Origin: Owenia fusiformis
Lineage: Eukaryota; Annelida; Polychaeta; Sabellida; Oweniidae
Length of the DNA stretch: 64,000 bases
Direction of reading: 5' to 3'
Assembly (NCBI GenBank): GCA_903813345.2
Contig: CAIIXF020000001.1
Location: forward strand, 30,431,915-30,495,914
Positions 7,741-59,934 of this stretch are shown here, one piece after another. The stretch's first letter is position 1. Each line of letters starts with the position of its first letter. The notes beneath the pieces are model-generated. The model did not search any database, was not told the origin of the DNA, and saw only the letters and a list, made by a program, of their open reading frames with translations. Made by a program: the position numbers and the translations under genes.

Positions 7741-8215
7741 TTGGACTATTTGTTCGATCCAGAATTAGCTGAAGTGGCCTATTTGTTAGACCCAGAACCA
7801 ACTAATGAGGCCTATTTGTTAAACCCAGAACCAACTAATGAGGCCTATTTGTTAAACCCAGAACCAACTAATGAGGCCTATTTGTAGGACCCAGAACCAA
7901 CTAATGAGGCCTATTTGTTAGACCCAGAACCAACTAATGAGGCCTATTTGTTAAACCCAGAACCAACTAATGAGGCCTATTTGTTAAAGCCAGAACCAAC
8001 TAATGAGGCCTATTTGTTAAATCAAGAACCAACTTATGAGGGTTATTTGTGGTCAGAACTCAGAACCAACTTATGGGGAATATTTGTTAAAATCAGAATT
8101 AATCGATAAGGACTAATTAAACCCAGAACCAACTGATGGAGGAAATCTCAGGACTAACTAATGAAGGGCATTTGTTCGACCTGGAACCAACTAATGGGGG
8201 TGATTTGTTTGACCC
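7741..8215. repeat. 33-bp minisatellite
   Basis: About 14 units of a 33-bp repeat with core CCAACTAATGAGGCCTATTTG. The central seven or eight are nearly identical and the edges are degenerate. Because 33 is a multiple of three, one + frame reads as an 11-residue repeat YLLNPEPTNEA, broken by a TAG at about 7885. It lies about 190 bp downstream of the stop of the - strand SYCP3 gene, in or just past its 3' UTR. Confidence 0.9.
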
Positions 8216-18947: not shown

Positions 18948-18979
<32 letters not shown>

Positions 18980-21900
18980 ACGGACAGACGGACGGAGGGC
19001 TTCACTATATCCCTGCCGAACTTCGTTCGTTGGGATAATAAGGGACTGAGTAGATGTAATGGGTTAATGATAAACCAATTCTGTTAGTTCTTGCAATATT
19101 TGGTAGTCGCAGACGTTGATATCGGATGACCCAATTATGTTGTTTTGGACCATCCTGATATGAGCTCACTTTCGAATCATTATATTTTCCAACAAGACGG
19201 GGCTCCAATCAATAGATCCCACAGGAGTGTCAAATGGTTAAAAGAAAATGTGCCTAGATTCATCCCCCTTAATCTGCCTCCCCAGATCACCCGATTACCA
19301 AACATCTGCGACAACATCTGCGAGAACAAACAGAATTAGTGTACCATTAATCCTTTACCGTACATCTATTCAGTCCCTGAAGGACAGAATTATTGAGAAG
19401 TGAAATTCATTGTCTCAACAGCATATCAATGATGCTATTGACCAGTTTAGGCCAAAATTAAGGGCTACAATTGATCAAAATGGTGGACATATTGAATGTC
19501 TTTTTATGTAAATAAAGTTGACAATAAAATTTGGTTTTTGCAAGTTTCGGAAAACCTGTTTTGAAATGAAAATGACATCATTTATATTATGGACGCTGGT
19601 TGACAGACATTATAATTAATTTGACCTTACTTATGATATATCAAATTAAAGATGAGTAAATTCCCTATCCATTGGTATATAATATGACATGTTTTCATTA
19701 AGAAAATCAATATTTATTTTTGAAATACGAGTGTCCCATTTTTTTGGACCACCCTGAACATTACAAACACTTCCAAAAATATAAAACTGCCCATTTATTG
19801 ACATTAATGAATCACTATCATGAGTAAAATGATAGCTTGCTAACCAACCCCAAAAACATGAACAGAAAATACATTTCCTATTTGCAAGCTGGTACCAATC
19901 CCTAAAGGAATTCTAGGCAATAAAAGTAACAAAATATTGCTTCTGGGACAAGATCAAACGACTTTTACATATTCTTTTCCCTACCTATTTTGTAATTTAA
20001 CAATCAACACAAGTATACATACCATATTTCAGCAGATATCGAAAAAATCATAAAAATATTTTTTGATCGATAAATTCATGGATTATACCATGGTAAAACC
20101 GGAGGTATTTTCTCTGAAGTCCATGTGGAATATTTAAATTATTTAAAATTTTGACGTGGATTCGATTTCAAATGCTTCTTAATGATCTTCAAATGATTTC
20201 TACTACTGCACCACAGACTTAAGCACTGATACCTCAATTCCACTTTGTACTCTTAGGGAATAAGAATGGTAGCTATAGCCTCATTTAGAATGGGTAAACA
20301 TACTCTGCTAATGTATTGTGGATTGCATATTTTGTTAGGATTCACAAAGGTAATATTTCAGGAAGAACAATATTTGTAATCGAGATTCATCATAAAAAAA
20401 GCCATTAAATTAATTGTTCTTGTAACTGCTGAGTTTATTTCATTTTCTGCTCAGCCAGAGACATATAAAACATTATCATTTTTACATAAAGAGATCCATA
20501 AAATGCCAGTGTGATGGGTCCCTTGAGCATGATGAATGTACATTGATGATGAGTGATGTTTTCATAAACAGAATTTATTAGAATGAGGTATATGAAATCA
20601 CATTCTAACAAATTCTGTTTATGATTTCTCTAAACATTAAAGAGAGAATCAGAGATAGCGAGCGGGATACACAAAAAATTGTTCCAATTTTAGAATATTT
20701 TTGGCTCATGTCATTCCTTGTCATGTCTATTTTTTAAAAAATCAGAAAAGTGCATACTTTATTCCAGGAAAACTAAAGATTTTTACAATAATATATTATT
20801 TTTCTATAAGAATTATTATTTGGTAGAATTTAAACATTTTCCACCCACTTTTTCACTTTGAATCATTAATAACTTCACCAATTTGTAACATATTGTGAAT
20901 CCTTTTGGATATATTGTATTTGATATTGTAAGGAATAGATTGGTAGGTCAATTATACAAGTTGCTTGTAACTTTGGCGCCCATTATAGATCTGATTCTGC
21001 CTTTAAGCAGTATTTTTTGCATATACCTGGTATATATTTGAGTTCATCCTTAGTATATCACAAGGCATTAAGATTCAAAATGTCACCACCTGCCATTTGT
21101 TACAGGCAACCAAACATGGTCCACAAAAAAGTTTGAGACTATGAAAAATGAGTTGTAGTATTTCAATGACTGGATTTGAAAACAATTCAACTATGCCACA
21201 ATTTAACATTTTTGGGGGTTCACTCTCATGTATTTCACATATTAACTCTGTCCCCAATAATCCAGGATTCCCATTTGCCTGATAACACACTCTTAAGAGA
21301 TTTTTTGAAACCATTCAAAGGATCTCCATAGTTGTATTGAGTTTCTGAATCTGATGTAATTCCCACTAAAACCAAACAAACTGAAAATTATAAATGACAA
21401 TATTAAAATAATTTCACAGCTACTCTAGCCTGATCTAACAGTTTGGACCATTGCTCAATATTGTGCCTCATGGAAAGAGAAGCAGAATTGGGGTAAAGTT
21501 ATATGAAATGCAGTAGTACCTGTTTCTGTTTATTCGCTGATTCAAGATGTAACATATCATCTCTATAGCCTGATTGTATTGTCTGAAGATTCTTTATCCT
21601 GAAATAAAGTACACATATCAATACATATCAAAAATGACACATACTGTACATTCTTGCTGTAAAATACATCCATGTACTTTAGATATGTTAATTCCAGATT
21701 GAACTGGAAACACCCGACTTGATTGATGATTACAAAGGTGTCTAAATGATTTTCAGCTCACATGCATATTTGATGAACATGACTTTTGTACATACAATTT
21801 CTTAATGAGTATTTTAAAGTTTTTCAATAGTAATTTTTTCATCCTGAGGATTGCATAAACCACTTTTATTCAATCAAAACAGCAGAGATACAACAAGGAA

Positions 21901-24900
21901 CTTTGAACTTAATATAACAAAAATACTAGTCTGATATAAGGAGCTAATTTAATGAACAAATCCTCCTCGATCGCAATGACTTAATAAATAAACCAATGAA
22001 TGTTTATTGCAATTTCACAAAAAAACAAAAAACTACTTTCATGTTAAATAAAACTTCAATTTTGTATCACTTGGTAAAGGGCCACGCCTGTACTCAAAAA
22101 CACAAGGTAAGAATTTAGTGAGCTGTCTGTCCCCAACCTTGTGGCCTGATAACAATATAGCACCTTAAATAATATATAAAGGTGTAAAAAAAAATCCCTT
22201 ACTTGATGAATACAACTAAATGTCACTTAGAGGCTATTACTCTGAGGACTCTTTCATTTCTTATTGATGACTTTTCAAATTACCCACTTCCGTGTAAGTC
22301 TAACTACAGAGATGGTAACTCACCTAATCAACAGACATTCACATAAAGAAGGTGAATAAATTGACTTTTTATACTCATTATGGATAGAGCTATTAGGAAA
22401 GTCCAGTATATCTTACCAGATAAATATAGAGAATAATTAGCGGATTGAAAATGACATTGAAAGAACCTTTATGATGTGCAAATAATTGACAATACTAATC
22501 ACTTGTAAGTCTTTCTAATTTCCTTTACATCCCCTATATCACTAATATGTTGTCGCTTTGAACTAAATTAATGACAAAGTATCTGATCTTCCATTATGAA
22601 AAGGAAATATATTTAGCATTAACTTTTGATCATTGACTTCTGATCATCCTAATAACAAAAGCAATATGACCGCCTTCGAAGATTTAAAAAATGTGTTCCA
22701 TTTTTGCAGATTACCTGCCTTTGTTTCATATTAAAAAAGGGTTTGTGTAAAAAACTGGGTGACCGGGTAGCCGGGTGGCCGAGTAACTGGGTACTTAACG
22801 TTCTTTGCAGGGTTACCAACTTTCAAAGTTGCACATTTGTAGACTACTCTTCAATATTTTTACGTTATCATTTTACCTGTAGAACCTGTAAGAGACTTAA
22901 TTGAGGAAGTCCTAGGTAGTTATTTACACACTTTCCACGTACGATGACATTAGTTGCTTGATTTATTGTCTGAATGATTGACGGATATCGATGATTGTTT
23001 TCTATGATTGCGATTTCTACGAGATATTTAACAAATCTGGAAGATTTACGTACGCGTAAATTGAAACGTATATATTTGCCGTTTTTCTCTGTTAATTAGT
23101 GTACGATGTACAATACAACGTTAGTTGCTTGATTCCTATTGCCTCACTGATTGACATTACATGTATATTAATTTTGTTTGTCGTTTTGCCGGTTGATTTC
23201 TTGGTAAATAAACTCTGTTGCTTGTTTGGTTGTTTGCTTGATTGGTTGTGTCACTGGTACGTTGATTGGGATGTCAGTTGGGCGTTTTGAGGCATAAAAT
23301 GAAAAAATCTCCTAACCCTGGTAGGAAGGTAGGGTAGGTTACCCGGTCACCCGGTCTTTACACAAACCCTTGAGTGATTGACAGGGTGATGATTATTTGT
23401 TTTGCTGGTTGGTTCATGGTTTATTGGAAGATTAGTTTGTTGCTTGGTTATTTGGTTGTCATTCAATGAAAAAAATCAAATTCCCAACCCTGCTCGGATT
23501 GTTAGGTACCCGGTCACCCGGCTACTCGGTTACCAGGTCACCCGGTTTTTTACACAAACCCTTAAAAAAAAGCTGGGAACATTTTGTGCTTCTTTGACTG
23601 ATACATCTATGGATAGATGGACTTCATGGCTTTAACATTTTTCTTCTGAAGGTGTTTTGTGGGTGTTACCTCTGGTGTTTTCTGACTCTACTCACCTGCA
23701 ATGTTGGGAAGACAAGCATTCACGAACCACTTTCTGCTGTTGCTTGAAGAATGCCTGGAGGAAAGAATACATGTAATTCATATGTATATTTACAAGACAT
23801 CACTCTATGGTAAACAAGAAAAGGTTACATTGCTAAGTAAGACAACGGCAACTTAAAATCAGCAACGCCACAGAGTAGCCAATCCCAACTAACAAAACAT
23901 TCATGAATCTGTAGGCAGGGGAGTCAGAAGGATTTGCCAAGATTGGGCGACTTTCTGGTATGGATGGGGCGACTTTCTGGTATGGATGGGTCGTGCGTGA
24001 AGTGTGCCACATGCAAAGCGTGTGGCGCAATCTAGGGGGATCGGGCTTAATGTGACTGTCATTCACCATTTATTAAGCAGTAAAAAATTGATTTGCTACA
24101 TTGGTGACAAAATGTTTACAGTTACCGTTGAATGTCGAGACTCGCATCATACAAATGTAATTTTTAGCGATATGTCTGCATGGAATGATAATCCTTCCAC
24201 TAAATATGAAGAAAATATGTCTACTTGTATTCGAGTTATCTTCTGAACAGAGGGATGGACTGACAGATGGAAGACTTCACTATATCCATACTCAACTTTG
24301 CTCATTGGGATAATTAAAGTAAATGTTTTACACATATATGGTAAACATCTTAAAAAATTGGCAAATTTCTTGCCAGTCTTTTAGCAGAATCATAAAATGC
24401 CACTTGTAAATGTTAAATTGATTCCAAAATGACAATTACAAAAGTATAATATTTACACAATGTGTTCATTAACCCTTCTGTAACTGGTATAGAATCAAGT
24501 ACAAAAACCAATCTTCTGTTTGGGTCAAGTAGAACTTTATTACAATCACATAACATTACTATACTAACAATCTACTAAATGTTCTACTTGCATGACATAT
24601 GAGCAAAGCTATTACAAGACTTGAATTTAATGCCATGGTACAGAACTAGAAAACTGCAGTAGTAGCAAATCCAAACGAACATTATAGCATACTATATATG
24701 AATCTGTATTTGTCACAATGTAATATTTACCATCTACTCTTCCCTTGAAAATATAATCAGTAGAATGAGTAGATATTAAAATACATACATTAGAATAGAG
24801 ATATATCATAATTTCCAACGATATGATCAGTACTGTCAACCCCCAAAGATTTTCTCGCGGGACAGATTTTTTAGACACAGTGCCCAAAATTCGCGGGATT

Positions 24901-27900
24901 TTGAGGGACATCTACTAAATTCGCGGGATTTAGCGGGACATTTAAGGGATTTGCGTAATTGCGCTAATACAGTGTGTCCCAAAAAAAAGGAAACCGGCAA
25001 TAGATTGCTTATTTCTCAAATATGAATAATAATAGGAAAATTTCACAGCTACCATCTGATAGGTTATGATGTCCTCTTTCTTATGATACCAATGTTGTCT
25101 ATTTTCCTTCACGGATGACTGAGTTATAAGGGATTTAAGTGACTATGTCAGAAATGAGTTTGTACCACTTTCAGCCAAGTCAATTTCACCATCATAACAA
25201 AGTGATAAGTAACAACAAATATCAGGATATCACTCTTTTACTCATTTATTCCAATTAAAATTACACACATCATATTTAACACCCCTTTTAAATCCCAATG
25301 TCCATTCAAAGTTGTTTTGACCCCAGTGTCCTTCAACATGACCCCCATTCCTTTCAATGCAAATGTCTGCCCTTGATCTCATCGCACGTACTGCATCCCT
25401 GATGATGACACTGGGGTTAAAACAACTTTATATGGACATTGGGATTTAAAAGGGGTGTTAAATATGATATGTGTAATTTTAATTGGAATAAATGAGTATA
25501 AGAGTGATATCCTGATGTTTGTTGTTACTTATCACTTTGTTATGATGGTGAAATTGACTTAGCTGAAAGTGGTACAAACTCATTTCTGACATGGTCACTT
25601 AAATCCCTTATAACCCAGTCATCCGTGAAGGAAAATAGACAACTTTGGTATCATAAGAAAGAGGACATCATAATCTATCAGATGGTAGCTGTGAAATTTT
25701 CCTATTATTATTCATATTTGAGAAATAAGCAATCTATTGCTGGTTTCCTTTTTTTTGGGACACCCTGTAGACCAAATTTTTTTATCAAATTCGTGGGATT
25801 TCGCGGGACCATTCGAGGGACAAACACCCTGTTAACAGGTTTACCACCAAAAACTTCATAGAGGGACAGCTTTTTTAGACAAAGTGCCCTAAATTTGCGG
25901 GATTTCGCGGGACATCCACCTAAATTTGCAGGATGTCCCGGGACATTCAAGGGATTTGCGTGATTGGGACTAATATAAAAGCGTGTAAGAGTACTTAAAT
26001 CAAACTTTCAGATACTGATTAATCAAATATAATGCACCATTACATTGTAACTTAAATAAACGTCAACACAATTTCACAAAATACGCATAGAAATATTATT
26101 AAACTTTATTGTAATATATCAAAAACAAAAACCATGCTTCAGGTGTGAGTACCGTAATCTAACACGAAATTAAAAAATTCGGAACAATACCTTGCACTTC
26201 TTGCGTCGTGACCAACTATAAAACACTTAGCCCCATAATTTTATATATTAAAATGTACCTAGTCTATTCATATACTGTAGGCATGGTCGAAAAAACCGGG
26301 TACCAAAAAAAACGAAATATACGAATATACAACAAAAGATTTGTTTTGAATTTACAAAAATGTATGTAACTTCCTTCACAATTTAACTGGAAGCTTCAAA
26401 TAAAAAGCATTTTAAGGCTCTTTTCTTCCTCTATCATCATGGTCATATTTCCATTGCGATTGCACCCCCTCCTGGCTACGCCAATGACATTTTAAGACGA
26501 TTTGAATAACAAGACATATCAATCTTACTCTATTTTCAATAGTTCGTATGTTGGTACGTAAATTGTTTTGATTATGATTTAAATCTGTAAATAGCTATCG
26601 TTGCTTTAGCAGAGAGGTGACGTGTGTTAATTTACATGATGCAACGTGTAAGATTTTGATTATTAATCATAATTTAAGTTATCCCAATTTTCGACAAAAT
26701 GTCCACTGAATTGTAAATTGTTATGTCTTACAATGTCATAGGCGTAGCCAGGAGAGGGTGCGATCGCACCCCCCCCCCCATAACCAATGAAAATATGGCC
26801 ATGACGATAGAGGAAGAAAAGAATCTTAAATTATGCTTTTTATTTGAAGCTTCTAGCTCAATTTTGAAGGATGTTACATACATTTTTGTAAATTCAAAAC
26901 AAATCTTACACGTTTTCTCATAATCTAATTATATATTCGTATTTTTCGTTTTTTGGGTACCCGTTTTTTGAACGGATATCGGGTACCAAATTTGAACCCA
27001 GCATGGAGGATTTACTACCCGGTACCCGTTTTTTTCTACAAACCCCTTCTAGATATCAGCGTCCATTTATTGTAACTCGCGTTTGCTAACATTTGCTCAG
27101 TTCTGAGATGAAGGGCACGCGGGTAGTAAAAAGGCCAACGTTGGAACTATTTGTGACCTACATCCCTATTTTCGTAATTAAAATGAAAGTTGAACCCTTC
27201 CTCTTTATTTTGATACCAAACAACAGCATGCTAGGTACTTAAAATTAGGTAAACTTTACACATCAAAAGTGCAAAAACTTAGCTTCTTATATACAATTGT
27301 AAGATAAGATAATCACAATATAGGGGATTGCAACAATTTCGAAAATTCGCGGAGGTCAAAGCCACATTTGCGGGACTTCGCGGGACATTGCGGGACACGC
27401 GAATTAGCCTAATTTTGATCAAATTCGCGGGATAATCCTGCCATTCGCGGGACACTTGACAGCTCTGTATGATGGTGGTTTATTTCATGACTCAGGAACA
27501 TCAATTGATTTTGATAACCCCAGTTATTTTATGAATAATGTTTTGTCATCCGAGCCAGATGACTGAAACTTGAAACACAGAAGCAAGAAAGGAAATCTAC
27601 GTTCTCTACGTTTTTCTTGCTAAAAAGCAAGGAAATACACACATGCCTTCATACTTTATTATGCAGAAAATTACATGGGCAGGTATGAAATTTTTCTAAA
27701 ATGTTTTCTTGAACCATCACCTTACCTTCACCATTAACAGATTGTGCTACACTTAATTGCCAATTGAGTGCCATAATGATTTAGAGTATACTTTTGCCAA
27801 ATACCATGATAATCAAGTGTCATAAACAATAATGATAATTGCTGTGAAAGGTGGGTTGGCATAAATTCAAGATTCAATTATCATGTTAAGTCTTTGCCAT

Positions 27901-30900: not shown

Positions 30901-33900
30901 AAACATTAAACAAATGCCAGGGAATTCATTACTACACACTTTCATGAATTTACCATTACCAAATGAATAATTGAAACTATTAATATAATGAGAACTAAGT
31001 GTCTCTTGAAGACTTTAAAATTCTTAAACATTTAACATATTCAACACACTTAAACTCTCCTGCTAATAAAACCCTTAATTGGATTTGTACAGGGTGTATA
31101 TTTAGTCTTGATCAGTCAGGTACAATAAGCAAGGCCAGAATATTTTAGGTTATAGATAGAGTATATTTGAATAAAAGCAGTAGCCAGAAGCAATTGCAGT
31201 AAAAGCTGAAAACCTACAAGTAATTTAGTGATATCCATCAGACTGAAGATCAAGAGTCCTGTCAAATTAAATTACTTTTACTATTTACCTCAAATGCATT
31301 AGTATAATGTTACTGAGTATCAAAACATTCCACTAAGTATTATACATGTTAGAGCAAATCAGATAAGTATCATCATTCCCAGAATTCTGATTTACTAATG
31401 TAGGTACTGGAATCCATTTAGTTTAACACAATCATTCTATCATTATACAGGCATTAGCAGAGCCAAGTCCCAACTGAACTAGATATTTAAGAGTTATTTC
31501 AGAGCCTGACAAGTTCTGACACCCTCTCACAGAATGTCAATGTGTGTCATTCCTACCAAATATTGTGTCTAAGGATAAGTTTTGGAAGGAATTTACAAGA
31601 AAATGGCAACTCCAAGGAGTAGCAGATCCCGCAAAAAATATTTCATGAATGTAATGCACTAGCCTATATGTCATAGTATAATACTTATGCTGTTAAAACC
31701 CTCGATTTGCACATACAATATATGTGCAACAGTGAAATCTCAGAATTACATGTACAAACATCAGAAAAAAGATACAATATTTGTGATCTACTTCAACATA
31801 CAGGGTGGTCAAAAAAAACGGCAACCCTAGTTTTTCCTAATATCTTTGTCATTCTAAGGAATAACTCCCTGATATTTTACACATTTGTACATCATTCAAT
31901 TTCCTACCAAATTACCATATTTCATGACCATCGGACTGATAGTCACAATTTTATTTCATTTTAAGCAACATACCCCAGATGGCCACTTTCGGGCTGTCTG
32001 AGCTGGTCTGTTATCCAAATAAACTCCATTTCCAACTTGATGCACTGGTAAACTCTAACAATTATGTATTCTTGGGAGCCAAGCACTTTATGAAGTAGTG
32101 GAGAGGCACCTTCACACAGACAGATGCACAGTTTAGTGTGTTCTCAGAAGATAGGGTCCTTTTACCGTTGATGATGCTAACAGATATGCAATAACTGTCA
32201 ACATCAAACTCTATTTTGTGATTCCCATGGAGTTCTTGGGGACTTAAGGTGACCCCAGAGGGGTTGAAAGGCAGCAACAGTGGTTTCAACAAGACAGAAC
32301 CATACCCCATACACCAAATGATGCACAATAATGGCTTGGGGACCACTTCAATGACCACATTATCAGCAGTACAACAGATAATGAATGGGCACACCTTAGC
32401 CCAGATATGGCCCCATTTAATCTTTACCAGTGGGAATACCCCAACGGTAGAGTGTAGGGTAAAAACACCAGAAAGACATTTGACCTCAATATAAAGATCA
32501 CATGTGTCATTCAGGCCATACTTGCTGAGGAATGCTGTTATGTCATTGACAGGTTTGGAAAACGCGTGCAGGTTTGCCTACAGCACGATATTGGAAAACT
32601 GGGGCACCTTGTTCAAAGTGCTGTAACATTGCGACTGTCTGTCCAATGTTCATGAAATAACACAGTCTAGTATGAAATTGAATGATGTACATGTGTGCCA
32701 AATATCAGGGCAAAATTCCCAAAAATGACAAAGATATGAGGAAAAATTAGGGTTGCCGTTTTTTTTGACCACCCTGTACCTTCCATTTCAGTGTAATATA
32801 GTACTGCATTAGGCAGCTATTTAGGATTTCCTGAGGCATGAATCCAAAAAAGGCATTAACATGACAAAATGTCACCTCCTAGTTGCTCACAATATCATTA
32901 GTTCAATCTTAAGTCAGATTTGAATTTCTGATAACCTGTAGATGATTTTGAAAAGAAAATTGGCCAATTTGAAGCGAGTTGAAAACGACCTTTTTTGACC
33001 CTGAGAAGACCATTGAAGGTGAAATCTCATATTAACAAAGGCATTAACATGACAAAATGTCACCTCCTAGTTGCTCACGATATTATTAGTTCAATCTTAA
33101 GTCAGATTTGAATTTCTGATAACCTGTAGATGATTTTGAAAAGAAAATTGGCCAATTTGAAGCGAGTTGAAAAATACCTTTTTTGACCCTGAGAAGACCA
33201 TTGAAGGTGAAATCTCATATTTACAAAGGCATTAACGTGACAAAATGTCACCTCCTAGTTGCTCACAATATCATTAGTTCAATCTTAAGTCAGATTTGAA
33301 TTTCTGATAACCTGTAGATGATTTTGAAAAGAAAATTGGCCAATTTGAAGCGAGTTGAAAAAGACCTTTTTTGACCCTGAGAAGACCATTGAAGGTGAAA
33401 TCTCATATTTACAAAGGCATTAACATGACAAAATGTCACCTCCTAGTTCCTCACAATATCATTAGTTCAATCTTAAGTCAGATTTGAACTTCTGAGAACT
33501 TGTAGATGATTTTGGAAAAAATGGTCAATTTGAAGCAAGTTGAAAAAATACCTTTTTAACCTTTTTGACCTTGAGAAGGTCATTGAAGGTCAAATCTCAA
33601 ATCTAAAGTCAGATTTGAACTTCTGATAACTTGTATATGATTTTGAGAAAAAAATGGTCAATTTGAAAAAAGACCTTTTTAACCTTTTTGACCTTGAGAA
33701 GGTCATTGAAGGTCAAATCTCAAATCTAAAGTCAGATTTGAACTTCTGATAACTTGATTTTGAAAAAAAATTGGTCAATTTGAAGCAAGTTGAAAAAAGA
33801 CCTTTTAGACCTATTTAACCTTTTTTGCCCTTGAAAAGGTCAATGAAGGTCAAATCTTAACTATAAAGTCAGATTTGAACTTCTGAAAACTTGTAGATGA

Positions 33901-36026: not shown

Positions 36027-36619
36027 TACACCCCATGCAGACAGATCGCCTAAAATTACATTCGTATGATACAAGACTCGACATTCAACGGGAAATTAAA
36101 AAAAATTTGCCAACCATGAAGCAAATTAATTTTTTACTGCTTTATAAATGGTGAATGACAGTCACATTGAGTTCTATAAGTATAATAGCACGACGTCTTG
36201 ATATTTCAGGGTAACTCGTTTGAATAGTGATGGCGGTGATGAAAATTACAATGTAAAGATAAAACCGCAACAAAATATTTGTAGATTTCTTTGGAAAACT
36301 AAGAAATATACATCACACATCGAAAAAATGTATCAATAGTAATAGTCCCTGATCTGGACCCTCTGAAAAAAAGTTTTGTTGTCCGGTACTTTCCCACATA
36401 AAATGATTGTACCGTTTGAAAGAACAGACTTCCCTCTAAAAGAAAACACCTCTTCTATTGATGTAAACAGGGGCAATAGGCACTAAAACGGGGTTAGACA
36501 AGGTGACATTCTGAAGTCTCACTTTCTTGTCATCACGATTCCAGGTAAACCATCAGACGGATTTACTTCAAGTTTTCACACATGTTATATGGTAAGAAGT
36601 TCTAGAGCTGATTAACTTT

Positions 36620-37240
36620 GCGGTGGCCATCTTGCATTCTGGCGGCCATCTTGGAATTTTTTCAGATAAATATTGTCATCGCGATTCCACAAAAACCACA
36701 TAACAGATGTACTTCAAATGTTCACACATGTTACATGGTAAAAAGTCCTAGACCTCATTATTTTTTCGGTGGCCATCTTGCATTCTGGCAGCCATCTTGG
36801 AAGTTTTAAGATAAATCTTGTCATCACGATTTCTGGATTTCAGGATTTACTTCAAATGTCCACACATGTTATATGGTAAGAAAATATAGAGGTGAATAAC
36901 TTTTCGGCAGCCATCTTGCATTCTGGCGGCCATCTTGGAAATTTTGGGATAAATCTTGTCATCATGTTTCCAGGAAAACAACCTAACAGATTAACTTCAA
37001 ATTTACACACATGTTACATGGTATGAAGTTCTAGAGCTGATTAACTTTTCAGTGGCCATCTTGCATTCTGGCGGCCATTTTGGAAGGTTTATAGATAAAT
37101 CTTGTAATCACGATTCCAGAAAAACCACTTCACAGTTATACTTCGAATTTTCACACATGTTACATGGTATGAAGTTCTAGAGCTGATTAACTTTCCGATA
37201 GCCATCTTGCATTCTGGCGACCATCTTGGAAGTTTGTAGA
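36620..37240. repeat. 146-bp subrepeats in the left foldback arm
   Basis: Five units with GGCCATCTTGCATTCTGGCG spaced about 138-146 bp. Each continues with GGAAGTTT, TTGTCATCACGATTCC, TACTTCAAAT and CACACATGTTACATGGTA. Confidence 0.92.
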
Positions 37241-38409
37241 TAAATATAAAATACAGTCAAAGCATTTACCATCAACAAAGGATGCTCTCATTCTCCATAT
37301 AAATAGAGCCAACTATTAGGCCTTTATTTGGCGAAACGCAGGCAAATCAATGATGACTGTTTTTTGAAATACAGTTTATGTAACTTAAGTGAGGAATTAA
37401 ATGTACAATTATGTTGTCTTCTGAACTATTTGTTTGCAAATATGCACATTTTCTTAAACATATGATACTGAGACACGTTTGTGAGAAAAAATGTCGTGGG
37501 AATTCTGCCTACAAAGTGTGAAAGGAAAAATCATACCTTCGATGATCCCACATTTTGTTACCGAAACAAACGGTTTAGGTAACCAGCATAATCGAGTGGA
37601 TCACTATAATATACTTTAGTAGTCTTTAATAATGTTAGGGAGGATGAGTTGTAAGGCATACTATGTCATGTTAGATCATGATCTATACTATTTTTATTAT
37701 AATTTACCAGTTACACTTTCTCCATGCTAGGTTCTGTTATAACTTTTGTTCCGTTTCCTATGGCATCCGTGCTTTATACATTTACATTCACAATGGTATA
37801 GTCCCTTCCTGGTATATTTTTTTAGGTTTTATGACTGTTAAATTCTATAGTCTTGTTAAGACCACTTTATAAACAGGTTTGTTATTACTTTTATGACTGT
37901 TAAATTATATAGTCTAGTTAACACCACTTTATAAACAGGTTTATTATTACTGGTGTAACTAACACAACGAAAAAAAATATAATTAATTTATTTGATCTTA
38001 TATAACATGGAATTATTTTTTCTTTTCGATAAAACATTGCTTATTAGAAATATATTTAGTTGAAAACTTAGAGTAAACAATCAGTTCTTCTTTCACAAAG
38101 TTTATTTTGGTTCAGTAGATTTTTCTATACATTATTTTTATGTCACCACCACTAGTGATTGGGTGACATATTGTAATAGCTTCGAACGTTTATCTTGACA
38201 CTGTTCAGTAGTTAATGTGTACTGTATACTTAACAAGGTGTGGTGACATTTTGCATGTTTCTGCATCGTCACTACTATTGAAAGCTTATGTTGATATTGT
38301 AGCAGTGTTTTTTAAGTTATTTTTGTTGGTACAATTAGTTTCCAAACCCTATACTTATATCGATCTGACACACAGTTTTAGTGCAGGTTTAAGTGATTTT
38401 TGTTGATAA

Positions 38410-38510
38410 TTAAACACAAAGAGCACATGTGTCTCGAACTCGCAACATTGTGGATACAGAGCCCATTCACATAGTTTGACATGCTGGTGCTCTGAACCAG
38501 CACGTTAGTT
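38410..38510 (-). repeat. Possible tRNA-like relic
   Basis: On the - strand, GGTTCAGAGCACCAGCATG is followed about 45 bp later by GCGAGTTCGAGACAC, resembling a decayed D-arm and T-arm (B box). It cannot fold into a full tRNA and may be a SINE head or chance. Confidence 0.25.
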
Positions 38511-39519
38511 AATATCTGACTAAGAGACAGCTTGCTTTCCCGATGAAGAAACGTTATCTGCAGCTTTCATGAGTACTATAGTATCTACAACTATTTTGAT
38601 CTTATGAGTATTGGATATCATTATTTTCAATTTTTCTTCAACATGTATTTTAATGACTTCAGTATGAATGGAATGTCCCTCGGAGTTGTGGTCGTTGATG
38701 AGGAATTGGTCATTGAACGGTGTTGATGCTGTTTATTCCCATATTAGATTATTGTCTTGGGATATTCAGGTTTGATTTTTGTTTGCCAGTTTTACACTTT
38801 ACAGTTTGCTTTTCCCACTAGGTTGCTTTACACTTTTTTCCTTTCTCATTTGTCATTTTTGTTTATATTTAGTAAGGATATGATTCGCAGGTCTCTCCTT
38901 CTGTGTGATCACCTGTCCAGAAGATAATTCAACTGCATGAAGAACATTTCGTTGACATGATGCACAGTGAAAGGTTTGCCACACATTTACATTTTCGTTT
39001 AAAAGAGCTTTAATTCCGTTATAAATTGGATCAAGGCCAATTTAGCATACATTTCGCTCTCAAAAATCACTTTGCAATAATGGATTTCAAAGAAATGTTT
39101 GACGTTTTCAATAATCTTTTTTCTTTTTGATGAAATGTAGTTATTTATTCTAAAAGTCAATCGATGTCATACACAAAATGCATTTAAGTGGTATAAAGTA
39201 CAGAAGCAGAGTAAAAATATGTATTTTAGAATATCACCATGTGTTACCCCATTGTAGCGCCTCTTGCCCATGTTTCTATTAATATAAAACATGATATCAT
39301 ACACCAAATATGCATTTATGTCAAATTATGTGGTTTAAAATACAGAAAAATAGATAATAAATAACCACCTTGTTTAACCCCACTTTATTGCCTTTTGCCC
39401 CTGTTTATATCAATATAAAAGGTAGCATGTAACCTTCCTTGTAACATGTGTAAAAGTTTCAAGAAAATCAGTAAAGTGGTTTTCTTGGAATCACAATGAC
39501 AAGATTTATCCAAAAAACT

Positions 39520-39960
39520 TCCAAGATGGCCGCCAGAATGCAAGATGGCCACAGAAAGGTTAATTAGCTCTAGAACTTCTTACGATGTAATATGTGTGAA
39601 AATTTGAAGTAAATCCGTTTGGTTTTCCTGAAATCGTAATGACAAGATTTATCTTTAAACTTCCAAGATGGCTGCCAGAATGCAAGATGGCCACCGAAAA
39701 AATAATGAGGTATAGGACTTTTTACCATGTTACATGTGTGAACATTTGAAGTACATCTGTTATGTGGTTATTGTGGAATCGCGATGACAATATTTATCTG
39801 AAAAAAATTCCAAGATGGCCGCCAGAATGCAAGATGGCCGCCGCAAAGTTAATGAGCTCTAGAACTTCTTACCATGTTACATGTGTGAAAATTTGAAGTA
39901 AATCCGTCTGATGGTTTACCTGGAATCATGATGACAAGAAAGTGAGACTTCAGAATGCCA
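39520..39960. repeat. 146-bp subrepeats in the right foldback arm
   Basis: Three units in inverse orientation, with CCAAGATGGCCGCCAGAATG at about 39521, 39663 and 39810. Confidence 0.92.
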
Positions 39961-40132
39961 CCTTGTCTAACCCCGTTTTAGTGCCTTTTGCCCCTGTTTA
40001 CATCAATAGAAGAGGTGTTTTCTTTAAGAGGGAAGTCTGTTCTTTCAAACGGTGCAATCATTTTATGTGGGAAAGTACCGGACAACAAAACCCCTTTTCT
40101 AGAGCCCTTTTGGAAATCAGATCGGGGACTAT

Positions 40133-40390
40133 AAGACCTGCAGGTCCGATTCCCCCTGGTAGCATTAACATTGGTATCGTATATGTCACACATTTAATAT
40201 TTGAAACGCAACTATAATTCGAACTTATGATCGGACATAAGTATGATGTGAACTTCAAGGTGATAAAGTAATACTAGTATCATACTAATGTCCGATCATA
40301 AGTTCGAATAATAGTTGCGTTTCAAATATTAATTGTGTAACATATACGAGACCAATGTTAATGCTACCAGAGAGAATCTGACCTGCAGAC
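40133..40390. mobile_element. Palindromic insertion in the right foldback arm
   Basis: Arms starting ACCTGCAGGTC and containing GGTAGCATTAACATTGGT and TCGAACTTATGATCGGACAT are repeated in inverse around a loop near 40260. The left foldback arm lacks it at the corresponding point (about 36353), so it is a later insertion or a local expansion. Confidence 0.8.
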
Positions 40391-40829
40391 CTTACAATTT
40401 ATACATGTTTTTTTTGTGTTCCGGAAAATTCGACATGTGATGTATATTTTTTTGTATTTTTTTTATCTTTCCATAGTTGTTTCAATTACTGCCATCACTT
40501 TTCAAACGACGTTACCTTGAAATATCAAGACATCATGCTATTCTCATACTTATAAAACTTAATTTGGCTATCATTTACCATTCATTAAGCAATAAAAAAT
40601 TAATTTGCTCCATGGGTGACAAATTATTCAAGTTTCCTGGTGAATGTCGAGTCTCACATCATACGAATGTAATTTTAGTCGATTTGCATGCATGGGGTGT
40701 AATAGGGATTTCATGTCAATATATATGGCCAGAAATATAATTATGTTTGGGGGAAATCTTATCTTAAATGTAACTAGATTGGTAAATTGAACAAAGTTCA
40801 ATTTAAGACTCCAGATTGATTTACTTGAG

Positions 40830-49003: not shown

Positions 49004-49150
49004 GGCTTTGTATAAAAAACCTCCTACCTCATACCCACCTACCCACGTACGTGGGACATGATACAGTCTTTGAAGGGTTAAATTTTGAAGATCTTCGTTT
49101 ATTAAATCTTAGTTTATGATGAATTATAGATGCATTTATAGCGACCCTTG

Positions 49151-49192
49151 ATAGCAAGTTGCTACTACATCCCAGCTGGGTTCGATTCCCAC
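49151..49192 (+). repeat. tRNA B-box-like sequence
   Basis: GGTTCGATTCC matches the polymerase III B box exactly, after ATAGCAAGTTGC. The short copy has GGATTCGATTCC in the equivalent place. It could mark a SINE or tRNA relic inside the element. Confidence 0.3.
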
Positions 49193-49415
49193 TCAGAGCA
49201 TCGAATTTAGCACACTTTCTTTCAATTCAATTCAATTCAATTTATTAAATTAAAAATCAATCATACAATGTTTCATACAATACATGAAAAGACACCCCAT
49301 GTGGCGTATATATTTCATGGCTAATTAGATTTTCAACAATCATGTTTTACTTATAAACCAGAAGCAATTTGAATTTAATTGAAAACAAGGCACAGACGTG
49401 AACAATATCGTACCT

Positions 49416-51204
49416 AAAACACAGCATTGCGGTCTTGTTGACCAATAAAGCAAGATGGCCGCAGAAAAGTTAATCAGCTCTAGAACTTATCACTGTGTAA
49501 CATATGTAAAAATTTGAACGGTTTGGCTGGAAACCTGTAGACAAGTCTTGAAAGTGAAGATTTTAGGACGGAAAATCCAAAATGGCCACCTTAAAATTTA
49601 CCCAGAATGCCCAAAAACCAATCAGTTCTTAACGTTGATATGTAGAAACATCCCTGAAAATTTCAGATGAATCCCTCGAATGGTTTGGCTGAAAATCTGT
49701 AGACAAGTCTTGAAAGTGAAGATTTTAGGATGGAAAATCCAAAATGGCCACCTTAAAATTTACTCACAATGGCCAAAAACTAATCAGTTCTTGACATTGA
49801 TAAGTAGAAACATCCCTGAAAATTTCAGATGAATCCCTCAAATGGTTTGGCTGGAAACCTGTAGACAATTCTTGAAAGTGAAGATTTTAGGACGGAAAAT
49901 CCAAAATGGCCACCTTAAATTTACCCAGAATGCCCAAAAACCAATCAGTTCTTGACTTAGATATGTAGAAACATCCCTGAAAATTTCAGATGAATCCCTC
50001 AAATGGTTTGGCTGAAAATCTGTAGACATGTCTTGAAAGTGAAGATTTTAGGACGGAAAATCCAAAATGGCCACCTTAAATTTTACTCACAATGGCCAAA
50101 AACTAATCAGTTCTTGACATTGATACGTAGAAACATCCCTGAAAATTTCAGATGAATCCCTCAAATGGTTTGGCTGGAAACCTGTAGACAAGTCTTGAAA
50201 GTAAAGATTTTAGGATGGAAAATCCAAAATGGCCACCTTAAAATTTACCCAGAATGCCCAAAAACTGATCAGTTCTTGATGTTGATATGTAGAAACATCC
50301 CTGAAAATTTCAGATGAATCCCTCAAATGGTTTGGCTGAAAACCTGTAGACAAGTCTTGAAAGTGAAGATTTTAGGACGGAAAATCCAAAATGGCCACCT
50401 TAAAATTTACCCAGAATGCCCAAAAACGAATCTGTTCTTGATGTTGATATGTAGAAACATCCCTGAAAATTTCAGATGAATCCCTAAAATGGTTTGGCTG
50501 GAAACCTGTAGACAAGTCTTGAAAGTAAAGATTTTAGGACGGAAAATCCAAAATGGCCACCTTAAAATTTACCCAGAATGCCCAAAAACTAATCAGTTCT
50601 TGATGTTGATATGTAGAAACATCCCTGAAAATTTCAGATGAATCCCTCAAATGGTTTGGCTGAAAACCTGTAGACAAGTCTTGAAAGTGAACATTTTAGG
50701 ACGGAAAATCCAAAATGGCCACCTTAAAATTTACCCAGAATGCCCAAAAACGAATCTGTTCTTGATGTTGATATGTACAAACATCCCTGAAAATTTCAGA
50801 TGAATCCCTAAAATGGTTTGGCTGGAAACCTGTAGACAAGTCTTGAAAGTAAAGATTTTAGGACGGAAAATCCAAAATGGCCACCTTAAAATTTACCCAG
50901 AATGCCCAAAAACTAATCAGTTCTTCACGTTGATATGTAGAAACATCCCTGAAAATTTCAGATGAATCCCTCAAATGGTTTGGCTGAAAACCTGTAGACA
51001 AGTCTTGAAAGTGAAGATTTTAGGATGGAAAATCCAAAATGGCCACCTTAAAATTTACCCAGAATGCCCAAAAACTAATCAGTTCTTGATGTTGATAAGT
51101 AGAAACATCCCTGAAAATTTCAGATGAATCCCTCAAATGGTTTGGCTGGAAACCTGTAGACAAGCTGAAAAGTGAGACGCCGCCCGCCGCCCGTCAAGCT
51201 GACT
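49416..51204. repeat. Satellite-bearing segment between 14-bp direct repeats
   Basis: ACAATATCGTACCT occurs at 49402-49415 and 51205-51218, directly flanking the segment, as for a target duplication. The segment starts with one unit like the 146-bp foldback subrepeat (GCAAGATGGCCGCAGAAAAG) and then passes into the 162-bp array. Confidence 0.8.
49510..51165. repeat. 162-bp satellite array with dimeric order
   Basis: The word TAGACA(A) starts at 49538, 49700, 49862, 50023, 50185, 50347, 50509, 50671, 50833, 50995 and 51157: a 162-bp period (once 161). Units alternate strictly between CTGGAAACCTG and CTGAAAA(C/T)CTG just before it, giving a 324-bp higher-order repeat. Confidence 0.95.
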
Positions 51205-51229
51205 ACAATATCGTACCTCTTGTTAGGTA

Positions 51230-51372
51230 CGATAAAAAGAACAGATGGAAGCATCACTGGTATTATATTAATTAATAAGATCACGTTTGAACATCTTTCA
51301 AACTGTTTTATATGGTTTGCCTTTTTAAAATCTGTTGATAAAGAATTATAAAGTGTCGCTCCACTGACTCTT
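51230..51372 (-). pseudogene. LINE reverse-transcriptase C-terminal fragment
   Basis: Reads RRVSGATLYNSLSTDFKKAN then IKQFERCSNVILL, a decayed form of the ...G-x-x-LWNSL-P... end of CR1/L2-type ORF2 proteins. Truncated at its 5' side by the insertion boundary. Confidence 0.65.
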
Positions 51373-51659
51373 CTTTCTTTATCTGGCTTGTTGGACCTAT
51401 GCTCGCAGGCGTTAGTTATTTTTCCCCTGGGGCACCCTCGGGTCATAACACATTAAAATGCATCCATATGCCTTTATTTATGGATCTGACATCTGACTAG
51501 TCATAAAATAAAGCCGGAATTGTAGAAATGTTAATAATTTGAGCTATTTTGAGATCTAATAATCTTTAAAATTGAACCCTTCAATGACTGTATCATGTTC
51601 CACATAGGTGGGTATGAGGTAGGAGGTTTTTTATACAAAGCCCTTGAACATTTCTTTAA

Positions 51660-52174: not shown

Positions 52175-52658
52175 GGCTTTGTATAAAAAACCTCCTACCT
52201 CATACCCACCTACCCACCTACGTGGAACATGATACAGTCATTGAAGGGTTCAATTTTAAAGATTATTAAATCTTTAAATAGCTCAAATTATTAACATTTT
52301 TTAATTCCGGCTTTATTTTATGAGAGACAGATGACAGATCCATAAATAAAGACATATGGATGCAGTTTTAATGTGTAATGACCCGAGGGCGCCCCAGGGG
52401 AATGAATAACTAACGACTAACAATCCAGATAAAGAAATTGAAAGAAAGTGTACTAAATTTGATGCCCTGATTGGGAATCGAATCCAGCTGGGATGTAGTG
52501 GCAACTTGCTATCAAGGGTCCTTACAAATGCATCTATAATTCATCATACCTAAGATTTAATAAACTAAGATCTTTAAAATTGAACCCTTCAAAGACTGTA
52601 TCATGTCCCACGTACGTGGGTAGGTGGGTATGAGGTAGGAGGTTTTTTATACAAAGCC
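52175..52658. mobile_element. MULE-like non-autonomous element, short copy
   Basis: About 484 bp between GGCTTTGTATAAAAAACCTC and its inverse, flanked on both sides by CTAAGTAAGC (10 bp). It is oriented opposite to the large copy and lacks the LINE and satellite, so it serves as the empty version. Confidence 0.9.
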
Positions 52659-53352
52659 CTAAGTAAGCTTGTTTTTGGAAATCTCAGAAGTACAATGTAT
52701 ACTCTCTCCGCCCATTTAAGAGCTATAAGGCACATGCAACAAGGAATTTCAATGGAGTCATTCTATGCACCTACATGTGGATAATACCGAGAACTCCTGA
52801 ATCTTAGATATATATGTATATGCAAAACTGCAACGAATTCAATATTTCAATAACAAAAACGTTTTTTAAGAATTATTACTTACAGCGGAAATAGAGAACA
52901 TACCGGGCCATTCTTTAAACAATTTAAAATTCTAAAATTTACGGACATATATGACCTTAATATTCTACAACTAACTTACAAATGTATTTAACAGACCCGA
53001 TTCTTTTCCAAGTGACATTTTTATAGATTTCATTGAAAAAAACAATAGTGTTCATCAACAGAACACTAGACAGAATGAACAAGATCATGTAACAAAATTC
53101 AAAACCAATTATTTGAGATGCAGTTTTAAACTACAAGGTGAAATTATCTGGAACAAAATTCTTAATACTATTAAACTTACCAATAATATTTATAAACTGA
53201 AAAAAAGTCATTTTAAAGATGACACATTTTCAAAATACTGATTTTGATGTTCAGCAAACATAAGGTTATTCCATCCTCTTTATTGTACATTATTTTTTTA
53301 CCAATGTTTTTATTTCATGAGACAAATTATGGTTCACCCAGTGTCATGTTGT

Positions 53353-55064
53353 CACGCCTTACCATCGCGTAAGCAGGCGTCACCGTACAGCGTCAAAAAA
53401 TAGCGGAGTACAGTTTTCTGTACGGTAACGCAAATTAACTGCTTTGAAGCAAAAACTATGACAAGGGTTTAAAAAAATCAATTTGATGAAAACTAATACG
53501 ATTTCATGTGAAATAAAAACAGCATTCTCTTAGAAATGGTTTTAACTTTATGATTATGATAAACGTTTTACGACCACTGTTCGGATTTTTTCTGAGTGAA
53601 TCGGCCCACATAATCGACCAGAGTGAAAAAAGGTTGTTTTTTTCACATTTTGTTTGGTTATTATTTTCCCTACCGTCTGAGAGTATGGATTATTTTTATG
53701 AGAATATGTATTTGTTACTTACACATTTTAGAACGGGCGTAGATTCAGCAAACAACCATTCATTATGTATATTTAAAAAAGATCAAATTTGAACGGTGAC
53801 GCACCAGCTGTACGGTGACGCTATGCTTTGGTGAACTAAATGAGACTAAGATTGTATGAAATGGAAACTCTGGAGTATGATCATTTGTTCATATATAGTG
53901 CATGGGCGCTACAGTTCAACGATATCTTCCACAGTTTAATGGAAGGTAACTGGAAATGTATGATACGGTAAAGATCATGAAACCAAAAACTCTCTTGTTG
54001 CTATGTTATTGATGTTTTAAAACAAAGGATGTCACAAGTAAATCTCATCTTGCACGTGTGACTTTTTAGGATGAAAGATGCAATATCTTGCATGGGCACG
54101 GGGTAAAGCAGACCCGATGATGCAATGAGCTTGCTCGGCGGTATCATGACTGTGTAACGGGTCTTAATGTATAAGTGTGCTCGGCGGTAGGTTCAAACAA
54201 CGCGGATCCTCAAAGCATGTGCTCATGGTATATTCGTGTTTTAACACCCGTGATGGGGTAAAGATGGCTGTGTAGGCTATCTTTGTTAGTCATATGAGAA
54301 AAGCCGGGTCTAGTTCATATGATACCAAAGCATTACGTCAACTTTCAAATAGTTAATTCCATGAAAACTAAAAATATCGAAATTAATACTTCCTGTCTGC
54401 CATCTTAAATGCAAAGGTGACGGCTGTAACCTTCGCTTGATACTTACCAGTGATAATGAACATGTAGATCTGACGCTTCTTTACCTCTTGTTTGAACAGT
54501 AAGCTTAGAGCACTTCATAAAATCTAAGGAAGCGTCACCGTACAGCTGATGCGTCACCGTACAGTTCTGATCTTTTTTAAATAAATACACTGAATGATTA
54601 TTTGCCGAATATTCATCTGTTCTAAAATGTGTAGATAACAAATACATATTCTCATAAAAATAATCCATACTCTCAGATGACAGGGAAAATAATAACCAAA
54701 CGAAAAGTGAAAAAAACGCCATTTTTCTCTCTAGTCGATTATGTGGGCCGATCCAATCAGAAAAAATCCGAGCAGTGCTCGAAAAACTTTTATCATAATT
54801 AGAAAGTTAAAACCATTCCTAAGAGAATGCTGTTTTCATTACACCCGAAATCGTATTTATTTTCATCTAATTGTGGCGTTTTCTCTCTGTGGTAGCGAGC
54901 TGTCANNNNNNNNNNNNNNNNNNNNNNNACATAATTAATCTTTTTAAAACCCTCATTATAGTTTTTGCTTCAACTCAGTTAATTTTCGTCACCGTACAGA
55001 AAACTGTACTACTGTATTTTTTGACGCTGTACGGTGACGCCTGCTTACGCGATGGTTAGGCGTG
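53353..55064. mobile_element. 1.7-kb foldback element with GCGTCACCGTACAG sites
   Basis: The outer ends CACGCCTTACCATCGCGTAA and its near-inverse are flanked by GTTGT on both sides, a likely 5-bp duplication. Arms of about 470-530 bp (53353-53825 and 54530-55064) are inverted copies. The motif GCGTCACCGTACAG or a near form occurs at each arm's outer and inner end. The 0.7-kb centre is unique and contains GCTCGGCGGTA twice. The right arm has a run of 23 N (54906-54928). No coding capacity. Confidence 0.88.
54906..54928. other. Assembly gap (23 N)
   Basis: Unknown bases within the right arm of the foldback element. The left arm suggests how much is missing, but the gap is likely a consequence of the inverted repeat. 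Confidence 0.98.
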
Positions 55065-55612
55065 GTTGTGTTAAACTTTCAAGCACTTGAAAATTTTAGA
55101 TTAATGATTTTAAATGTGGTCAATTATATACCTATGTAGGTGTCACGATCACGAATATGTAAAAATGTTATTTTGTTTTAATGAAATAAACAAAAAATAA
55201 AATAAAATAAGATATGTCTGAGGCTACGATTAAACATTTCAAAGCAATTATTTGTGATTGTCTGGCAGAACAATTAGTCTTATCTAATACAATGAAAATT
55301 GACAAGGGTTACATGATATTGACGTCAATTAATCAAGTTTCATTAATTGAAATGCCAATCATAAAAAAACATAATTAGTAAAACATGAGCTACACATAAT
55401 AACTGATATTGTGATATCACCTTATGGAAGCTGAGGAAATACAGGGTAATGTAAATTGCTTAATTTGGCTCTATTTAATTTGGCATATTGGCCATCATCA
55501 ATCGTATTACTCACTTAACTGCTCACCACCATTAGCGCAGTTTTACATGTATCTCTCCTGGTATCAGATTGTTTTGTCTGAACCAGAAGGGACTCTGAAA
55601 AATCTTTTGAAA

Positions 55613-57403: not shown

Positions 57404-59434
57404 CAGTACTGTCAACCCCTAAAGATTTTCTCGCAGAACAGATTTTTTAGACCAAGTGCCCAAAATTTGCGGGATTTTGCGGGACATCTACTAAATTTGC
57501 GGGATTTCGCGGGACATTTAAGGGATTTGCGTGATTGTGCTAAAAGGCAAATTTTTTTATCAAATTCGCGGGATTTCACGGGACCATTCGAGGGACAAAC
57601 ACCCTAATTGCGGGACAGTTAACAGGGGTACCACCAAAAACTCCATAGAGGGACAGATTTTTTAGACAAAGTGCCCTAAATTTGCGTGATTTCGCGGGAC
57701 ATCCACCTAAATTTGCAGGATGTCCCGGGACATTCAAGGGATTTGCGTGATTGGGACTAATGTAAAAGCGTGTAAAAGTACTTAAATCAAACTTTCAGAT
57801 ACTGATTAATCAAATATAATGCACCGTTACATTGTAACTTAAATAAACGTCAACACAATTTCACAAAATACGCATAGGAATATTATTATACTTCATTGTA
57901 ATTTATCAAAAACAAAAACCATGCTTCAGGTGTGAGTACCGTATTCTAACACGAAATTCAAAAATTCGGAACAATACTTTGCACTTCTGGCGTCGTGACC
58001 AACTATGAAACGCTTACCCCCATAATGTTATATATTAAAATGTACCTATTCATATACTGTAGGCATGGGCTTTCAATTGAAAGCCCATGATATAGGGGTT
58101 CGATTAATCTAAATCAAATTATAGGAAATTAGGTTACTTTTCTAGATAGGGTTTGTAGAAAAAACCGGGTACTGGGTAGTAAATCCTCCATGCTGGGTTC
58201 AAACTTGGTACCCGGTCGAAAAAAACGGGTACCCAAAAAACGAAATATACGAATATACAACATAATTAGATCATTAGAAAACGTGTAAGATTTGTTTTGA
58301 ATTATAAAAATGTATGTTACTTCCTTCAAATTGAGCTAGAAGCTTCAAATAAAAAGCATTTTAAGGCTCTTTTCTTCCTCTATCATCATGGTCATATTTC
58401 CATTGGTAATGAGGGGGGGTGCGATCGCACCCCCTCCTGGCTACGCCAATGACATTGTAAGACGATTTGAAAAACAAGACAAATCAATCTTACTCTATTT
58501 TCAATACTTCGTATGTTGGTACATGAATTGTTTTGATTATGATTTAAACCTGTAAATAGCTATCGTTGCTTTAGCAGAGAGGTGGCGTGTGTTAATTTAA
58601 ATGATGCAACGTGTAAGATTTTGATTATTAATCATAATTTAAGTTATCCCAATTTTCGACAAAATGTCCACTGAATTGTAAATTGTTATGTCTTACAATG
58701 TCATAGGCGTAGCCAGGAGAGGGTGCGATGGTGCGATCGCACCCCCCCCCATAACTAATGAAAATATGGCCATGACGATAGAGGAAGAAAAGAGCCTTAA
58801 AATATGCTTTTTATTTGAAGCTTCTAGCTCAATTTTGAAGGATGTTACATACATATTTGTAAATTCAAAACAAATCTTACACGTTTTCTCATAATCTATT
58901 ATGTTATATATTCGTATTTTTCGTTTTTTGGGTTCCCGTTTTTTTGACCGGGTACCGGATACCAAGTTTGAACCCAGCATGGAGGATTTACTACCCGGTA
59001 CCCGTGTTTTTCTACAAACCCTTTCTAGATATCAGCGTCCATTTATTGTAACTCGCGTTTGCTAATATTTGCTCAGTTCTGAGATGAAGGCCACACGGGT
59101 AGTAAAAAGGCCTGCGTTGGAACTATTTGTGACCTACATCCCTATTTTCGTAATTAAAATGAAAGTTGAACCTTTCCCCTTTATTTTGATACCAAACAAC
59201 AGCATGCTAGGTACTTAAAATTAGGTAAACTTTACTCCTCAAAAGTGCAAAAACTTAGCTTCTTATAAAAGATAAGATAATCACAATATAGGGGATTGCA
59301 ACAATTTCGGAAATTCGCGGAGGTCAAAGCCACATTTGCGGGACTTCGCGGGACATTGCGGGACACGCGAATTAGCCTAATTTTGATCAAATTCGCGGGA
59401 TAATCCCGCCATTTGCGGGACACTTGACAGCTCT
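57404..59434. mobile_element. hAT-like non-autonomous element with CGGGA arrays, copy B
   Basis: Very similar to copy A over its length, with ends CAGTACTGTCAA and CAGAGCTGTCAA inverse, flanked by GAATCG and GAATCA (5 of 6 bases alike). It has no mariner insertion. The inner palindrome at 58146-59028 is more complete than in copy A. Confidence 0.8.
58146..59028. repeat. Palindromic element inside copy B
   Basis: Left end AGGGTTTGTAGAAAAAACCG, right end the inverse; both arms hold CCTCCATGCTGGGTTCAAAC and GGGTACC words. GGTGCGATCGCACC beside GGCGTAGCCAGGAG appears in both halves (about 58425 and 58730). It may be an element nested in the hAT-like one. Confidence 0.8.
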
Positions 59435-59934
59435 GGAATCAGGCTTGTCATCGAACAAAGGATGGCTTTCTCTATATGGTCATTTCCTCTTAGTCATTGT
59501 TTACCCAGTATTGACCGGCATTAAACATTATTAAGCATATTCAACCAAATGCAGAATAAAAAAGACATTCCCCATAATTCCCTTAAAAAAAATAGTCACC
59601 CTAATTTAGTTTATAATAATTGGATTGGATTCTAAGAGTTCATTCACACCTTGTTGAAGATTTCATTACTCATGGATGTCAATACTTAAACTCCTATTTA
59701 TCAAAGCATGAATATAATTTTCTCAATCCCCAGTACATTCATTGAATTGGATAGGCCATCCTCATAGTGTCATAAATATTGGTATCATTCACAATCATGG
59801 ATTACAAGTAACATAAGTTTTTTATGACGTAAGTTTAACATCACAAGTGTGATTTTGGTGATTTTCAAATTTCCAAGAAATGAACTCCCTGATTAAATAA
59901 ATAGTACCATGGGTACTGGGCTCATATGGCGTTG

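Follow-up and report, generated by a model that had tools for sequence, protein, structure and literature searches.

The stretch between positions 53353 and 55064 of the window (the whole stretch of DNA analysed, 64,000 bases) is probably a single insertion of a non-autonomous, foldback-type cut-and-paste DNA transposon whose repeated 14-mers would serve as transposase-binding sites, a reading to which we give a probability of roughly 0.7. It draws on features observed directly, namely the arms, the sites, the exact ends, the 5-bp direct repeat and the four of ten open reading frames (ORFs) in the element that gave no Pfam family. The foldback itself is real and well bounded, and of a broadly familiar kind. 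Its parts are the following.

53353-55064, no strand: whole foldback element, 1,712 bp, with CAC...GTG termini, delimited by arm alignment and flanking repeat
53348-53352, plus strand: putative left target-site duplication GTTGT, adjoining the arm end and equal to the right flank
53353-53822, plus strand: left arm (long terminal inverted repeat), 470 nt
53377-53390, plus strand: left site 1, 0 mismatches
53418-53431, minus strand: left site 2, 1 mismatch, in opposite orientation to site 1, with which it could fold into a hairpin
53789-53802, minus strand: left site 3, 2 mismatches
53808-53821, minus strand: left site 4, 0 mismatches, at the inner arm edge
53823-54530, no strand: middle segment, 708 bp, with one TGACGC and no CTGTAC
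54531-55064, minus strand: right arm (long terminal inverted repeat), 534 nt, with a run of 23 N and sequence absent from the left arm
54532-54545, plus strand: right site 4, 0 mismatches, at the inner arm edge
54551-54564, plus strand: right site 3, 0 mismatches
54986-54999, plus strand: right site 2, 1 mismatch
55027-55040, minus strand: right site 1, 0 mismatches
55065-55069, plus strand: putative right target-site duplication GTTGT, equal to the left flank

The window has 33.5% G+C, a CpG observed/expected ratio of 0.49, many tandem and inverted repeats, and 8 stop-to-stop ORFs of at least 110 aa; the shortness of its ORFs, together with the repeats, suggests part of an animal nuclear scaffold. 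The two arms of the foldback can be aligned end to end, and 56 of the 469 compared positions differ when those facing gaps or N are excluded; the right arm is 64 nt longer than the left, counting the N run at 54906-54928. Given this divergence of 12%, the foldback may well be old. A single difference falls in the outermost 50 arm positions and 55 in the remaining 419; the complete 50-bp bins that follow have 3-10 differences each, and the final bin of 20 positions has 1. Such near-identity over the first 50 positions would be expected if transposition requires the ends. G+C content is 39.0% in the middle and 35.5% and 35.8% in the arms.

Both limits of arm homology (53353 and 55064) are adjoined by a perfect 5-bp direct repeat, GTTGT, which we infer from the sequence to be a target-site duplication. 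Flank identity is confined to these 5 bp, and a 5-bp match at the same spacing was found at 105 of 60,000 window positions (0.00175), the chance of such a match for a single copy being about 0.2%. The termini are 5'-CACGCC, with both ends reading CACGCCT and a terminal sequence of 5'-CACGCCTWACCATCGCG. The structure expected of a foldback-type element, long inverted arms that reach the element ends with a direct repeat on each side, is therefore seen here in one copy, and the 64-kb window yielded no second copy or empty site and, among the 29 ORF stretches searched, no transposase at the Pfam cut-off.

The eight 14-mer sites reported by the sequence-only reading are present. Copies of GCGTCACCGTACAG or its reverse complement with 0-2 mismatches occur eight times, all within 53377-55040 and mirrored between the arms; the partial site first placed at 53791 corresponds to 53789-53802 with 2 mismatches, and the one placed at 54987 to 54986-54999. 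Nowhere else in the window does GCGTCACCGTACAG occur with 3 or fewer mismatches, and the next best matches, at six places, have 4. The earlier description of sites at all arm ends stands for the innermost site (53808-53821 and 54532-54545), which lies within 1 bp of the edge of arm homology, while the outer sites start 24 bp inside. All four sites lie at corresponding places in both arms. In the left arm they start 24, 65, 436 and 455 bp from the end: site 1 points inward, site 2 is inverted and 41 bp further in (start to start), and sites 3 and 4, which lie 19 bp apart next to the inner border of the arm, share one orientation, opposite to that of site 1. Shorter words show the same confinement, as every window occurrence of CTGTACGG (7/7), GGTGACGC (6/6) and TGACGC (9/9) falls in the foldback element.

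Because the arms are copies of one another, the eight sites count as four independent ones, and enrichment was tested on one arm alone. Each arm holds 4 non-overlapping copies of the 14-mer (2 or fewer mismatches, either strand), whereas among 200 shuffles of the left arm that preserved its dinucleotides, 136 reached 1 copy at most and 64 reached 2. When the DNA is single-stranded, a hairpin can form between sites 1 and 2 (z of -2.55 on the left and -4.74 on the right), and no unusual hairpin was found at the inner end of the left arm, where the inner site pair lies (z 0.35). Since the 14-mer sites show no significantly lower divergence between the arms than the remaining arm sequence, functional constraint on them is plausible at most.

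Why foldback transposons keep long inverted arms has been only partly answered, and one tested answer, from Galileo, is that the arms carry repeated transposase-binding sites (PMC3688188; this and the other papers cited are drawn on in excerpt). In Galileo, a P-superfamily element of Drosophila, DNase I footprinting and EMSA placed sites for the THAP domain of the transposase inside the long terminal inverted repeats (TIRs), several per arm (PMC3688188), and the repeated 14-mers of the foldback may be the putative equivalent. Two-arm copies of Galileo without a transposase also occur (PMC3688188, PMC3573991). Since the layout of sites in the left arm is comparable with this published precedent, we propose a non-autonomous foldback mobilised in trans. 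A transposase supplied in trans would recognise both the 14-mer sites and the 5'-CACGCC ends, excise the element and insert it with a 5-bp stagger, from which GTTGT would have been duplicated. In each arm, the inverted outer pair and the directly repeated inner pair of 14-mers would most likely be repeated sites for the DNA-binding domain of this transposase. The suggestion of recombinase or transposase sites made in the sequence-only reading thus holds in its second form as the most likely one, given the exact ends, the perfect 5-bp repeat and the Galileo precedent (PMC3688188). Binding to the 14-mers, the existence of a trans-acting transposase, mobilisation by it and any present activity are what we infer. 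Several points count against the transposon reading: a single copy is seen, its 5-bp match may be due to chance, the 14-mers are not significantly better conserved than their surroundings, the inner pair forms no unusual hairpin, and the inner sites, at left-arm positions 437-469, are deep in the arm for subterminal ones. As an independent foldback, with duplications of 5 bp and a cleanly repeated 14-mer, such an element would add another, unrelated case in which the role of long arms can be tested.

The ends and flanks of the foldback can be set against those of known superfamilies. P elements make 8-bp duplications, hAT termini are of the CAG/TAG type, unlike the CAC ends found here, and EnSpm/CACTA elements have CACTA ends with duplications of 2-4 bp. 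The CACGC ends and 5-bp repeat of the foldback do not fit EnSpm/CACTA, the duplication in the excerpt of PMC12730594 being 3 bp. Duplication length argues against the P superfamily, including Galileo, as it is 7 bp in Galileo (PMC3573991) and 5 bp in our one copy; nor was a THAP transposase found with the foldback among the 29 ORF stretches of the window that were searched. FB and Tetris elements share long inverted arms and a variable, non-coding middle with the foldback, and three complete copies of Tetris have no conserved ORF in the account given in the excerpt of PMC4079207. Tetris differs in its duplications of 8-10 bp and tandem repeats of ~220 bp, compared with a 5-bp repeat and dispersed 14-mers here (PMC4079207), and the duplication length of our one copy thus also speaks against the usual Mutator/FB rule. 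By the same measure hAT5 (5 bp; PMC12730594) and Ginger2 (4 or 5 bp; PMC10045372) are alternatives.

Our leading guess is that the enzyme would be Transib/RAG-like or another of the CAC-ended kind, and we make no claim of Transib/RAG-like membership. Transib/RAG-like elements carry the heptamer CACWRTG, and Transib targets are G+C-rich; only 3 of 7 positions in the foldback fit that heptamer, and neither GTTGT nor the TAATA that flanks a second element described below is G+C-rich. A possible but rather doubtful version, which would narrow the preferred transposon reading and not exclude it, is that the element is a non-autonomous Transib/RAG-like member in which the 14-mers replace distal recognition sites. 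The 5'-CAC termini and 5-bp duplications reported for RAG-like elements (PMC7204232), the latter also for Transibs (PMC4411706), are both seen in our one copy, and the window holds a second long-armed element with CAC ends and a 5-bp repeat. The ends fit the protostome RAG-like consensus CACTWMCAAACKTYKBB (PMC7204232) at 12 of 17 positions on the right and 11 of 17 on the left, but this fit is weak, as among 1,328 17-mers of the window that start with CAC, 21.8% reach 11 and 7.8% reach 12. Neither the heptamer nor this consensus is matched in full, the heptamer after CAC and the complete AAA block being the parts that differ, and long arms are absent from the description of RAG-like elements in the excerpt of PMC7204232. 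Were the enzyme RAG-like, the foldback would bear on how recognition signals vary in that group.

The second element lies at 36029-40699 (no strand), spans 4.67 kb, has CAC...GTG ends and is flanked on both sides by the 5-bp direct repeat TAATA. Its ends read CACCCCATGC (CACCCC), its arms agree at 82% of the 245 outer positions aligned, and its inner arms contain tandem repeats of ~146 bp; a palindromic stretch of 263 bp is located at 40132-40394. It shows no significant similarity to the foldback (sensitive blastn, best E = 0.47), the common part being only CACSCC; the 14-mer does not occur in it with fewer than 5 mismatches, and eight of its interior ORFs matched no Pfam family at the cut-off. 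Both elements came out of a screen of the window for CAC...GTG pairs (12-bp inverted ends, 2 or fewer mismatches, spacing 100-8000), in which 232 pairs included two with identical 5-bp flanks, 53353-55064 and 36029-40699, and 13 matching at 4 of 5 positions. About 0.4 identical-flank pairs are expected by chance (232 x 0.00175), so the second element is suggestive and not proof. When the screen was run over all 64 end trinucleotides with an added demand of 28/40 inverted identity, ATG gave 6 pairs, CAC 2 and GAT 1, and CAC is therefore not the sole passing end. It is possible that 36029-40699 is a relative of the foldback in mechanism, and the two together hint, no more, at several foldbacks with CAC ends and 5-bp duplications in this genome.

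At its most extended, and very improbably as a whole, the host would have a lineage of foldbacks that end in CAC...GTG and make 5-bp duplications, moved by a transposase of a Transib/RAG-like or other CAC type. This enzyme would use 14-bp arrays, some close to the outer arm ends and some at the inner ones, and the latter would allow cuts at the arm-middle borders and thereby a swap of the central cargo. Such a lineage, if true, would be a kind of foldback that belongs to neither Mutator nor P, the groups named in the literature as excerpted. Among the matches listed in our search of literature titles and abstract openings (subscription papers and Repbase lying outside its scope), none described a foldback with 5-bp duplications, and the 14-mer and 17-mer, taken as literal words on both strands, were absent from the paper texts searched.

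It is unlikely that the 14-mers are functionless remnants of a short repeat multiplied by slippage or by gene conversion between the arms. In line with this explanation the inner pair stands in direct tandem, 19 bp apart, and between the arms the sites have not diverged significantly less than the remaining sequence (4 of 56 against 52 of 413 positions differing, Fisher p = 0.28). Slippage does not yield the outer pair, however, which is inverted and more than 350 bp from the inner pair, and the two arms, despite their divergence, retain each of the four sites in place.

The sequence-only reading had also proposed that each arm could act as an independent inverted unit, and it is quite unlikely that each arm is, or derives from, a small inverted-repeat element of ~445 bp with 15-bp ends GCGTCACCGTACAGC, two such units standing head to head around captured DNA: a perfect 15-bp inverted pair does occur in the left arm (53377-53391 and 53807-53821) and on both sides the homology between the arms comes to an end no more than 1 bp from the innermost site, but homology also runs on for 24 bp outside the outer 14-mer to GTTGT, the 14-mer-bounded units lack matching flanks (GCAG before and TATG after the left unit, GGAA before and CTGC after the right), and no solo arm was found in the window, where the longest significant match outside the element is 23 nt. 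Judged by the GTTGT repeats at both ends of the arm homology, the mobile unit is likely to be the entire 1,712-bp foldback rather than a single arm.

We also looked at coding content. The element has 10 ORF stretches of at least 45 aa and the window 444 stop-free stretches of at least 45 aa. Four of the ten element ORFs were searched against Pfam (two in the arms, one of these in part, and two in the middle, the latter at E 0.1), and none matched a family. The arm ORFs, 91 aa on the left (53517-53789) and 120 aa on the right (54447-54806), owe their shared residues to the similarity of the arms, and they were rejected as candidate genes after neither the right one nor the C-terminal 80 aa of the left one (53550-53789) gave a Pfam match. 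Across the window, 29 of the 444 stretches were searched, none of which matched at the cut-off or resembled a RAG1-like gene, so that a linked recombinase gene, for which the sequence-only reading had suggested a search, did not appear among them, and at this coverage a small coding remnant could be missed. A 76-aa ORF at 15785-16012, 37 kb from the foldback, matched the helix-turn-helix of a Tc3-type transposase below the threshold (E = 0.0022); Tc3-type elements duplicate TA, which is another class than the 5-bp repeat of the foldback. Rfam matched nothing in 53300-55120, and no tRNA was found.

Searches were extended to IMG/VR, plasmid and phage collections, which are not animal genomes, so absence there says little. 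In IMG/VR the 15-mer had one match in each of the 78 stretches listed, as by chance, and the outer 17-mer ACCATCGCGTAAGCAGG matched 2 stretches (L079 and L080) over 17 nt only, while neither paired 14-mers nor the 32-nt arm core were found there (0 each). Blastn of the element against 80 IMG/VR loci at E up to 1 gave alignments of 31 nt or less with a best E of 0.023, and given these lengths we treated the motif matches as chance; blastn against plasmids and phages gave no match. Paired 14-mers turned up in 1 stretch of the genome_contigs collection, a GC-rich region of the bacterium Sinosporangium siamense that has TGTACGGTGAC-like repeats of its own (501 bases inspected). This locus (L081) has several direct copies of a GTACGGTGAC motif at 3900-4060, which are probably unrelated to the foldback.

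Several other features of the window were recorded. An open stretch at 944-1219, with much SRPGSRPGSRPSSRAS, has the look of a coding exon of the host; it had no Pfam or PDB match, and we take it to resemble spectraplakin C-termini. Palindromic or long-armed structures at 24968-25769, 31799-32778 and 17719-19755 have similar ends (e.g., TACAGGGTGTCCCAAAAA, TACAGGGTGGTCAAAAA and AGGGTGGTCCAAAAA), a MITE-like end that recurs in the window. Two repeat copies at 24828-27467 and 57404-59435, ~32 kb apart, are 92-98% identical in the blocks listed. Two further inverted-repeat elements, at 49004-51642 and 52175-52658, have ends GGCTTTGTATAAAAAACCTCCTACC and direct flanks of 9 bp (CTTGAACAT) and 10 bp (CTAAGTAAGC), and would be Mutator-like by duplication length; the first of them encloses a 162-bp tandem array at 49520-51175.
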